Origin: a virus
Virus record (IMG/VR): IMGVR_UViG_3300042514_001094
Span: 1 to 31,625 of that record
DNA: 31,625 nt
Direction: 5' to 3' (one strand)
Made by a program: the position numbers and the translations under genes. Positions 18,540 through 27,346 of the stretch are shown here, one piece after another (positions within the stretch are counted from its first letter, which is position 1; every line of letters begins with the position of its first letter). Below the pieces are notes generated by a model. The model was not told the origin of the DNA. It searched no databases and was given only the letters and a program-made list of their open reading frames with translations.

Positions 18540-18741
18540 ATTGTTGTTTCTAGGGGTGAATGTTGAATGGTGAATGGCGGGACGATGTGGCCACATCTTT
18601 TCGGCGTCCGGGTTTCCAAGGTTGCGGGGTGACTTCGTGCTTCTCCACCATCCCCTCCCGACCTCGATGTGCTGGCGGCTGGAAAATCCTGCCCAAACCA
18701 GTCATCCGTGTCGCGATGCCGCCGCCATTCACCAAAGGTTT
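18540..18741. other. Non-coding gap with heptamer repeats and palindrome
   Basis: About 200 bp between the hypothetical gene and the SSB-like gene. It holds three tandem 7-mers, GGTGAAT-GTTGAAT-GGTGAAT (18555-18575), and a perfect 14-bp palindrome GATGTGGCCACATC (18584-18597). A 61-codon minus-strand frame crosses it, but its sequence is not protein-like. It may contain a promoter for the SSB-replication genes or a piece of a host-type dispersed repeat. Confidence 0.5.
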
Positions 18742-18933: not shown

Positions 18934-19617
18934 TTATGGGGTTGGGATGTTGTTGGTGAGCGATTTAGCACGCCGCCCGTTCGTGGGTTTCTGAAAAACC
19001 AAAAAATAGCAGTGCCAAACTCTAGCGTGCCTCTGAGTGCCTTTTTGCGGCCCCGGCATGCGATGTTTTGCTGGTAAAATGAAAAGGTCTAATAATCTGA
19101 AGCCTTCAATTTCCGCCATCATGATAGTCCTGTAATGGGTACAGTGCATTCGATGGTTGTGGATGATGTCTTGGCACTTAAAAACCATCACGCCTCCCGG
19201 CTTTAGTACTCTCCACGCCTCGGATATTGTATGCCTGTAATGATCCTCAAGTTCTTCGTAGGCGTAGTACCCTCCAAATCTTGAGGTCATCGCCACCTTC
19301 CCGTCCTTGTGGTCTCTTCCGTTTTTCACATAGGTCAAAAAAGGAGGATCAAAAACGCAGTTTTTTAGGCTTTCAGCTTCAAGTGGAAGCATCATTGAGC
19401 ATGCCTGGACCGCTTCGGGTTTTTGTGGTGAGACATCAAAGCAATGTTTCGGTCGTGGTAGATTCTTCCAGAATGCACCGTTCCCATAAGTCATATCACA
19501 TTCAAAACCATCTGGGCAATGGAGCTTGATAATTCCACGCAAAATATCATCTTGTGATTCATAGACTGATCGAATCACGCTTTGCTTTTCTGTTGGTGAC
19601 TCCAAAAGTTGAATCAT
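18934..19617 (-). CDS. Orphan DNA methyltransferase (N6-adenine or N4-cytosine)
   Basis: 227 residues. SAM-binding motif DMTYGNGAFW (residues 41-50) precedes the catalytic motif FDPPF (89-93), the usual order of amino-methyltransferases. HTISEAWRVLKPGGVMVFKC is the typical beta-strand after motif IV. No restriction endonuclease gene is near, so it probably protects phage DNA or acts in regulation. Target sequence is unknown. It has visibly lower GC than its neighbours, hinting at recent acquisition. It overlaps the RusA gene by 4 bp (ATGA). Confidence 0.88.
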   Translation of the reverse strand: MIQLLESPTEKQSVIRSVYESQDDILRGIIKLHCPDGFECDMTYGNGAFWKNLPRPKHCFDVSPQKPEAVQACSMMLPLEAESLKNCVFDPPFLTYVKNGRDHKDGKVAMTSRFGGYYAYEELEDHYRHTISEAWRVLKPGGVMVFKCQDIIHNHRMHCTHYRTIMMAEIEGFRLLDLFILPAKHRMPGPQKGTQRHARVWHCYFLVFQKPTNGRRAKSLTNNIPTP

Positions 19618-25314: not shown

Positions 25315-25512
25315 TTAATAGACCAGTGCGCGGGGTTGTTTCTTTTTGGCTCGGGCCTTGAGGGTTGCCATGACATCGGCAAGGTCGAATCGCGTGATCG
25401 ATCGCTCGGCGACGACCGGCGTGATGACTCCTTCCCGCGTCCAGCGGTAGATAGTGTGCTTGGTGACGCCGAGTTGTTCGGCAAGTGCTTGTGGGGTCAG
25501 TTTCATTTTCAA
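25315..25512 (-). CDS. Excisionase / MerR-like helix-turn-helix protein
   Basis: 65 residues: MKMKLTPQALAEQLGVTKHT then IYRWTREGVITPVVAERSIT. The helix-turn-helix and 'YRW..EG.I' wing are typical of AlpA/excisionase-like and helix_turn_helix_17 proteins. It could be the excisionase partner of the integrase or a regulator of early genes. It directly follows the RHH gene (4-bp overlap). Confidence 0.78.
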   Translation of the reverse strand: MKMKLTPQALAEQLGVTKHTIYRWTREGVITPVVAERSITRFDLADVMATLKARAKKKQPRALVY

Positions 25513-25814: not shown

Positions 25815-26006
25815 ATGTCAGCACCCAAAAAGCCGAAAGACCGCTCGCCGGATCAGACGCTCCTGGGCGTTTCATTGCCCAAAGCCCTTAAGGAACGCAT
25901 CCGAAAGGCGGCGGCTCGTGAAAATCGCACCATGGCGAACTGGTCTGCGCATCACCTTGGACTGGTGATCGAGCAGATCGAGGCCGAGATGAAATCGAAG
26001 AAGTAA
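25815..26006 (+). CDS. Ribbon-helix-helix regulator B
   Basis: 63 residues from ATG 25815 (MSAPKKPKDRSPDQTLLGVS). RHH core: TLLGVSLPKALKERIRKAAA then RTMANWSAHHLGLVIEQIEA. The frame upstream of this ATG includes the poly-A tract and is not protein-like, so the short start is used. It matches RHH regulator A in length and core (LGV-L----KER--KAA), and lies on the opposite side of the palindrome. One may repress lytic genes and the other lysogenic genes; direction of control is unknown. Confidence 0.78.
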   Translation: MSAPKKPKDRSPDQTLLGVSLPKALKERIRKAAARENRTMANWSAHHLGLVIEQIEAEMKSKK

Positions 26007-26019
26007 GGTCGGCCATTTA

Positions 26020-26273
26020 CTGCCCAAATACTTTTTCGCGTTTGGGCAGTGTTTTTGCGTTTGGGCAGGATTGGGCAGTTTTTCCAAGGTTTTCCTGATA
26101 AAACCTAGGTTTTTTTCTCTAGGTAAATCATTCGTAATGTGCAGGCCGAGAGTTCGAATCTCTCCAGCGGCTCCAGTTTTCTAGATGTTTCCTAGGTTTT
26201 CCAAGAATCCATAGTTGCCAAAAGCCTACGGTTGTTGCCTATTTTAACATTTGATTGGGCAGCTATTGGGCAG
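26020..26273. repeat. TTGGGCAG arm-type integrase-binding repeats flanking attP
   Basis: Copies of (A/T)TTGGGCAG at 26041, 26060 and 26070 to the left of the tRNA core and at 26254 and 26265 to the right, plus one inverted copy at 26020-26028. CCTAGGTTTT-type repeats lie nearer the core (26104, 26187). Symmetric repeats of this kind are typical P/P' arms for tyrosine recombinases. The rest of 26007-26290 holds no gene. Confidence 0.78.
26130..26175 (+). other. attP: attP core: 3' half of a tRNA-Thr(CGU) gene
   Basis: Reads as anticodon loop TTCGTAA (anticodon CGT), half anticodon stem TGTGC, variable loop, T arm GAGAG-TTCGAAT-CTCTC, acceptor strand CAGCGGC, discriminator T and encoded CCA. 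No 5' half precedes it, so it is not a working tRNA gene. Phages carry such halves to restore the host tRNA after integration. Thr is inferred from the anticodon only. Confidence 0.85.
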
Positions 26274-26290
26274 TAAATTCAACGAAACCG

Positions 26291-27346
26291 ATGCCACGCC
26301 GTCCTTCCATCGTGCCGATAGAGACCCCAGAGGGGATAAGAGTTTCCATTCCGGCGACTCTTTCGCAGGATGGAAAGCGGCATCGGAAGTTTTTCCGAAC
26401 GATGTCGGAGGCCAAAAAGTTTGCGGCATCGTTGCGAAACCAGCATGACTCCGGTTTTCGAAACAGAGCGATCAGCGCCAACCTCGCGGCAGACGCAGCG
26501 CTTGCGGTCGATTTGCTTGCCCCGACCGGGCTTTCGTTGATCGAGGCCGTGAGGGTGGTGGTGAAGCAACTCACGCAGACCGGCGGTTCCGAGACATTTG
26601 AGGAGAGGTACTCCCGCGCGGTGGCCGCTGGCAACGCTCGGTGGTCGAAGCGGTATCAATCGGAAATGAGGCGGATGCTAAACTGGCTGCCGAAGGGTTT
26701 CCTCTCCCTCCCCTGCGGGACGATCGACCGCGCGGTGGTGGAGGCTGCGCTTGTGAAGGATCGGCCATTGGCTCGCTCGACGATCGATGCCAGGGCGACG
26801 CGGGTGCTGGCGGTTCTTCACTACCGCGAGCGGCACCGGAAGAGCACCGAGATCAAGATCCTCACGCTGGCGGAGGTCGAGGCGGTGCTCGGTCATTGCC
26901 AGTCGATCGAGGAACGCCGTGTGGTAGCGCTGCTGGCGTTTTCTGGCATCCGCCCGGACGCAGAGTCGGGAGAGATCGCGCGGCTCGACTGGGAGGCTGT
27001 GGGAGCGAAAGAAATCTACATCGCCCCTGCGACCTCGAAGACCGGCAGTGACCGGCACATTCCGCTGACGCCTCGGCTGCGGGCGGAGATCGATGGTCAT
27101 CCTGCCAGCGGGCCGGTGCTGCCTGCTAACTGGCGGCGATCATGGCAGCGGATACGGAAGGCGTCGGGCATTGCCGGCGAGCAGGACATTCTCCGGCATT
27201 CGTTTGCGTCGCACTATCTCGCAGCCACCGATGAAGCGCGGGCAAAGGCAGCGATGGGACACACGGCTGGCAGCTCGACGCTCTTCCGGCACTACCGGAG
27301 GGCCGTGACGCAGGCCGATGGGTTGGCCTATTTCGGACTGTGCTAG
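26291..27346 (+). CDS. int: Tyrosine-recombinase integrase
   Basis: 351 residues from ATG 26291 (MPRRPSIVPIETPEGIRVSI). An in-frame TTG at 26255 would start inside an arm repeat and is not preferred. Residues 1-60 form the arm-binding region, about 80-180 the core-binding domain. Catalytic set: R221 (FSGIRPDAESGE), K250 (ATSKTG), R302 (DILRHSFASH), H324 (AMGHTAG) and nucleophile Y335 (FRHYRR). The usual His of the HxxR motif is Asp299. It recombines the neighbouring tRNA-Thr-like attP with the host gene. It lies on the opposite strand to most of the genome. Confidence 0.95.
   Translation: MPRRPSIVPIETPEGIRVSIPATLSQDGKRHRKFFRTMSEAKKFAASLRNQHDSGFRNRAISANLAADAALAVDLLAPTGLSLIEAVRVVVKQLTQTGGSETFEERYSRAVAAGNARWSKRYQSEMRRMLNWLPKGFLSLPCGTIDRAVVEAALVKDRPLARSTIDARATRVLAVLHYRERHRKSTEIKILTLAEVEAVLGHCQSIEERRVVALLAFSGIRPDAESGEIARLDWEAVGAKEIYIAPATSKTGSDRHIPLTPRLRAEIDGHPASGPVLPANWRRSWQRIRKASGIAGEQDILRHSFASHYLAATDEARAKAAMGHTAGSSTLFRHYRRAVTQADGLAYFGLC

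Follow-up and report, generated by a model that had tools for sequence, protein, structure and literature searches.

A probable phage attachment site in half of a tRNA-Thr(CGU) gene, with arm sequences that track the integrase N-domain

In the viral DNA analysed here (31,625 nucleotides, hereafter the window), half of a tRNA gene lies just upstream of an integrase gene and is framed by copies of a short repeat. This raises the question of whether the phage integrates at this site, which host gene it would enter, and which of the repeats the integrase (Int) might bind. An earlier note had described 26020-26290 as an attP in the 3' half of tRNA-Thr(CGU) with six arm repeats, and all of its positions were correct. 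Four lines of evidence read from sequence (the anatomy of the locus, the conservation of the core, integrated elements at the site in relatives, and arm sequences that co-vary with the Int N-domain) make it very probable that the region is an attP, that of a temperate tailed Verrucomicrobiota phage, with arm-type sites that the Int N-domain would bind.

Anatomy of the attP region

The features of the region and its surroundings are listed below, with their basis in brackets.

25318..25506 (-): small HTH_17/MerR-like protein, candidate excisionase (Xis/RDF) (PF12728, E=1.2e-8; role suggested by the match)
25815..26006 (+): ribbon-helix-helix (RHH, Arc-like) protein, just left of attP (PF07878, E=1.8e-4, below the curated cut-off; phrog_3431, E=0.002)
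26018..26056 (+): hairpin, 12-bp stem then TTTTT, probably terminating the gene that ends at 26006
26020..26027 (-): inverted outer left copy of TTGGGCAG, -111; possible extra arm site and/or left hairpin stem
26042..26049 (+): outer left copy of TTGGGCAG, -89; possible extra arm site and/or right hairpin stem
26061..26068 (+): putative left (P) arm-type Int site, -70 from core (repeat, geometry, N-domain co-variation)
26071..26078 (+): putative left (P) arm-type Int site, -60 from core (same basis)
26131..26175 (+): probable attP core, a tRNA-Thr(CGU) 3' half running from anticodon loop TTCGTAA to CCA (sequence, relatives, complete host gene, hybrid call)
26131..26139 (+): crossover block TTCGTAATG (attL/attR junctions in L104, L105, L106+L147 and L185+L186)
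26255..26262 (+): putative right (P') arm-type Int site, +124 from core (repeat, geometry, N-domain co-variation)
26266..26273 (+): putative right (P') arm-type Int site, +135, directly upstream of int (same basis)
26291..27346 (+): int, tyrosine recombinase, 351 aa (PF00589, E=1e-7; phrog_1, E=3.9e-20; model m9bf3511a70d0)

The core comprises, in order, the anticodon loop TTCGTAA (anticodon CGT), the 3' anticodon stem TGTGC, the variable loop AGGCC, the T-arm GAGAG-TTCGAAT-CTCTC, the acceptor strand CAGCGGC, the discriminator T and CCA, and its extent is the one that the earlier note had read. ARAGORN called no complete tRNA in the 31.6-kb window and called tRNA-Thr(CGT) when a host 5' half was placed in front of the window half; an Rfam scan of the attP region gave no relevant match. 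The locus has the layout of an attP: a fragment of a host tRNA gene that ends at the gene's 3' end and, together with the repeats, adjoins int, as had been claimed. A further sequence, CCTAGGTTTT, occurs on both sides of the core (26100-26113 and 26191-26200), and a TTTTCCTAGG-like block follows CCA in several of the arm groups described below; each is a possible accessory-protein or Xis site.

All six repeats are exact copies of TTGGGCAG, and their arrangement, three direct and one inverted on the left and two direct on the right, bears out the earlier description. One further copy lies in the 31.6 kb, at 18689 (-), and the total of seven was reached in 0 of 100 dinucleotide shuffles of the window. 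Within 26010-26290, 5000 dinucleotide shuffles gave at most three copies of any 8-mer, with low-complexity words (e.g. poly-T) left out, against six observed, and the best 281-bp span elsewhere in the window held four copies of one 8-mer.

Int consists of an N-domain (about residues 1-65), a core-binding domain (about 100-180) and a catalytic domain (about 181-341). PF00589 was found in all 12 aligned integrase members, and R221, K250, R302, H324 and Y335 are invariant among the full-length ones. Residue 299, three before R302, is Asp and not the usual His of HxxR (QDILRH in aligned relatives). The full-length model (pLDDT 74.8) places a helical core-binding region between the N- and catalytic domains, and its catalytic domain resembles the HP1 and P2 integrases (Z about 13.9) in a full-length comparison that barely covered the N-domain. 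In this model the N-domain is beta-beta-beta-alpha, with strands at 10-12, 15-20 and 31-35, a helix at 38-53, and block pLDDT of 76-91 over residues 11-50; residues 1-66 modelled alone with AlphaFold were of low confidence (pLDDT 62). Searches with the N-domain gave no sequence match to Pfam arm-binding families or to PDB structures. With a predicted N-terminal arm-binding domain and putative arm sites flanking the core, Int appears to be a heterobivalent integrase.

Elsewhere the record resembles a temperate tailed phage, with terminase, portal, head protease, tape measure, exonuclease and a Bet/RecT-like annealing protein, and the 31,625-nt window has no terminal direct repeat. The HTH_17 protein also matches phrog_66, 'excisionase and transcriptional regulator' (E=5.5e-8). 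A DNA methyltransferase gene lies at 18934-19617 (-) (phrog_24333, E=4e-74).

Host target and occupied sites

Twelve IMG/VR loci encode integrases 70-97% identical to the window Int. All 11 with upstream DNA available have the tRNA half immediately before int; the twelfth (L011) is cut inside int. A pattern scan added more phage contigs with the half beside int. Its truncation point beside int was identical in every relative examined. Annotated phage DNA searched with the region gave zero matches.

In bacterial genomes the pattern recovered 43 stretches, all Verrucomicrobiota by record title (including Akkermansiaceae, Luteolibacter, Haloferula and Verrucomicrobiaceae) and most called tRNA-Thr(CGT) by ARAGORN. 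Intact tRNA-Thr(CGT) matching the window half in acceptor 3' strand and anticodon loop was present at about 40 genome loci; the 3' half pattern matched in 90 of the 260 genomes of one Verrucomicrobiota family, and the tRNA-Thr(CGT) 5' part usually occurred in one copy per genome. The attachment site points to Verrucomicrobiota as likely hosts of this uncultured phage group.

We propose that the tyrosine integrase would recombine attP with attB in the host tRNA-Thr(CGU) gene, which is usually single-copy, with the crossover in the anticodon loop at TTCGTAATG. The resulting attL would join the host 5' half to the phage 3' half as a complete tRNA, and attR would carry the displaced host 3' half; in a lysogen of the window phage, the junction would read host 5' half followed by TTCGTAATGTGCAGGCCGAGAG.

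The earlier note had named tRNA-Thr(CGU) as the target and suggested searching host genomes for a related element in that gene, and such elements were found there with precise attL and attR. In L104, the order is a complete tRNA-Thr(CGT), then a related int (47% identity) and, 8.4 kb on, a displaced 3' half. The rebuilt attL tRNA has the T-stem GGGGG/CCCTC, and the displaced attR half has GTCGG/CCGAC, the stem found in nearly all hosts among the family genomes with a match. Both ends share CATTCGTAATGAGC around the junction and then diverge, which places the crossover in the anticodon loop. One metagenome-assembled genome (MAG; G126) carries an attL in L106 (T-stem GTGAG/CTCAC) and an attR-like junction in L147 (GTCGG/CCGAC) on separate contigs, with similar arm repeats in both; relatives at about 47% Int identity are thus integrated with a rebuilt tRNA and a displaced fragment in L104 and in L106+L147. 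Among the genomes searched, we found no lysogen of the window phage itself, and the nearest relative among genomes (L058/L076, with an Int 83% identical) is a MAG-bin contig with intact attP.

A mirror arrangement was also observed. In L105 (G095:C36:44001-60000, 3763 and 12074), whose integrase is 42% identical to the window Int, the int-side junction runs from the host 5' half and TTCGTAATG into element DNA; a further 8.3 kb along is the complete tRNA, and the element sequence before it has arm-like repeats at -68/-57. L185 and L186, both from one MAG (G129), have junctions of the same type. Elements with a 3' half and elements with a 5' half have no tRNA sequence in common except TTCGTAATG, and these junctions indicate that a single integrase lineage crosses over at this one block with either half of the tRNA. 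Arm-like repeats (e.g. GTGCGACATAAATGCACC) at a similar distance upstream of complete tRNA-Thr(CGT) in L187 and L188 suggest more 5'-half elements.

Related prophages in a different tRNA gene, which the earlier note had held would count against its reading, were absent among the nearer relatives and present among distant ones (about 31-49% Int identity), whose sites are tRNA-Thr(UGU), tRNA-Asn or other tRNAs. In L078, L113, L091, L094, L080 and L110, the neighbour of a related int is either tRNA-Thr(UGU) or tRNA-Asn(GUU), the latter complete or as a half, an instance of target switching within the family. Displaced tRNA-Thr(CGT) 3' halves also occur 2-6 kb from the gene in L107 (G001:C45; 4155, 10010), L154 (G137:C80; 4005, 5914) and L148 (G119; 5760 and 7892), where the flanking repeats differ, and the tRNA-Thr(CGT) gene looks like a hotspot for several element families.

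The halves carried by these elements are divergent in sequence and conserved in pairing. Across six distinct element-borne halves every T-stem position pairs (30 of 30 cells), and in three of the pairs both partners have changed; their T-stem covariation score exceeded those of all 500 shuffles, for sequences that are few and related. When hybridised with host 5' halves, element halves were called tRNA-Thr(cgt). Phage-supplied halves can therefore diverge with the T-stem kept paired, and, where such a compensated half is unlike the host's, the lysogen can end up with a chimeric tRNA. The lysogeny would differ from the tRNA-dependent (Fionnbharth) type, as the rebuilt tRNA is complete and the window holds no full tRNA gene.

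Arm sequences and the integrase N-domain

In the relatives, direct repeat pairs flank the core at about -68/-57 and about +104/+113 from TTCGTAA; in the window's group they lie at -70/-60 and +124/+135, which puts the right pair some two helical turns farther from the core. Relatives keep the core unchanged but differ in repeat sequence, and by this sequence we sorted them by eye into the following groups.

TTGGGCAG: window, L002, L007, L058 and, less exactly, L003
AGGTCCAT-like: L004, L006, L008, L009, L012, L013, L025 (right-hand repeats degenerate in all but L004)
GTGGCAAT-like: L005, L010
GTGGCGAT: L017, L018
GTGGCAC: L027
CGTCCG: L021
GGCGAT: L106/L147

For 13 integrases from the TTGGGCAG, AGGTCCAT and GTGGCAAT groups, arm group was compared with Int sequence by ANOSIM with 5000 permutations. 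Residues 1-65 separated completely by arm group (R=1.00; 0 of 5000 permutations as high, a count that reflects separation and not independent events because the integrases are kin), with identities of 82-100% within groups and 43-58% between them. Residues 181-351, in contrast, did not follow arm group (R=0.04; 1860 of 5000 permutations). Individual pairs illustrate the same pattern: identity between the window Int and that of L006, from another arm group, is 49% over the N-domain and 94% over the catalytic domain, whereas the window and L058, which share an arm group, are 91% and 82% identical in these domains. L004 and L005 are identical over residues 100-180 and 58% identical in the N-domain, and their arms differ; identity changes near residue 76. 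Since left arms, core, right arms and the int start are contiguous, one recombination event within int could exchange the whole module. Residues 17, 19, 20, 32 and 34, in predicted strands, are among those fixed within the three arm groups and differing between them, and are candidates for specificity.

This series amounts to a natural experiment on arm-DNA recognition by tyrosine integrases. Core and target are the same and the geometry nearly so, and catalytic domains up to 94-96% identical are joined to several N-domains that go with several recognition sequences.

The near-fixed geometry and the co-variation with the Int N-domain support the assignment of the four inner repeats as arm-type Int sites. 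The Int N-domain would occupy the direct repeats at -70/-60 and +124/+135, and Int would bridge arms and core as in lambda; the P' pair might also autoregulate int, and the HTH_17 protein may act as Xis. The earlier note had taken the repeats as candidate sites for Int or Xis. Its Int part is supported for the inner four; we looked for evidence that TTGGGCAG copies serve as Xis sites and found none, and nothing links any of the repeats to Xis.

Rival readings and known systems

The tRNA half could in principle be the decayed remnant of a former phage tRNA gene, given that tRNA genes are common in phages and that the fragment is identical to no sampled host tRNA. Decay fits poorly with a truncation point beside int that is the same in all relatives examined, or with a T-stem that is always paired through compensatory changes; for the relatives it is refuted by occupied sites with attL and attR, and for the window we regard it as scarcely credible. 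The mismatch with sampled hosts does weigh against the attP reading for this phage. The window T-stem GAGAG/CTCTC was in no host tRNA among 387 order-level genomes and recurred only in the phage contig G001:C38, CACATTCGTAATGTG was in 0 of 260 family genomes, and a host with the window's exact tRNA 3' half was sought in family and order genomes and not found; the TGTGC anticodon-stem strand makes four of five pairs with the commonest host stem, with one mismatch, and one anticodon-stem base of the window half is likewise absent from the sampled host tRNAs. Two explanations fit: an unsampled host, or a private phage allele that gives a chimeric tRNA. On the boldest form of the second, every lysogen's tRNA-Thr(CGU) would be chimeric, with the phage T-arm (GAGAG/CTCTC) and one altered anticodon-stem base, a lysogenic conversion of an elongator tRNA, and arm/N-domain modules would be swapped among phages sharing the attachment site so that co-resident integrases avoid cross-reaction; we offer this scenario tentatively and consider it doubtful. 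As for the repeats, they might be operators of the RHH protein or autoregulatory sites of int and not recombination arm sites. The RHH gene ends at 26006, adjoining the left repeats, the right repeats come just before int, and in KplE1 the integrase gene intS is reportedly under tight control at the attachment region (PMC2951348). However, relatives carry repeat pairs whose distances from the core match, the repeat sequence follows the Int N-domain rather than the catalytic domain, and autoregulation is compatible with arm binding; we judge a purely regulatory role very unlikely.

The two outer left repeats (26020 and 26042) are a closer matter, and may be a terminator, extra arm sites or both. 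They could be solely the terminator of the RHH gene, leaving attP with four arm sites, a reading that we place just short of an even chance. The 12-bp hairpin followed by TTTTT has a fold z of -3.6, with 0 of 200 shuffles folding equally well, and a consensus promoter/terminator scan reported no site at 26018-26056, where the loop exceeds its 8-nt limit. The outer copies are confined to the TTGGGCAG group and missing from the other arm groups, and even L003 lacks the inverted copy and has a decayed direct one, TTGGGCAA. Against a terminator alone, both copies match all eight bases of the arm consensus, dual use is possible, and the attP of mycobacteriophage Pixie has six sites with one outer left site inverted (PMC3203893). 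Of the six arm repeats first proposed, the inner four are thus upheld by geometry and N-domain co-variation, whereas the outer left two, in a hairpin and poorly conserved, are not.

The attP proposed here has parallels in several known systems. Boilgate also carries an attP 3' half that differs from the host, by five mismatches, and still rebuilds a foldable tRNA (PMC10865867); here, T-stem changes are compensated on both strands across relatives, and a phage-encoded full tRNA is absent. Islander islands share the signature of a tRNA plus a displaced fragment, with anticodon-centred crossovers in 2083 of 3919, and the 159 islands with 5' fragments, against 3760 with 3' fragments, show the 5'-fragment type to be rare but known (PMC4383910); here, by contrast, one integrase lineage uses both fragment types at the same crossover block. 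The Akkermansia phages Chambord and Chantilly, also with Verrucomicrobiota hosts, are the only annotated phage records with a related integrase, but at 28-33% identity these integrases are distant and the region has no DNA similarity.

Like lambda-type systems, the window phage has what appear to be N-terminal arm-binding, core-binding and catalytic domains, putative paired arm sites flanking the core, an adjacent int and a small HTH Xis candidate nearby; it differs in targeting a tRNA anticodon loop and in an N-domain unrecognised by sequence families. A further likeness in layout and variation is with the mycobacteriophage Cluster K attP (CrimD/Anaya/Pixie), where paired putative arm sites flank a tRNA or tmRNA core, the arm consensus of K1 phages changes with N-domain residues, and related integrases, as in Tweety, act on the same attP with other arm sequences (PMC3203893). 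Unlike in Cluster K, about nine arm groups here have a common core and an almost common geometry, and N-domains about 50% identical accompany catalytic domains that are nearly identical. The mechanism is well known and has mycobacteriophage precedents; the value of the present finding lies in the breadth and clarity of this natural series of arms and N-domains.
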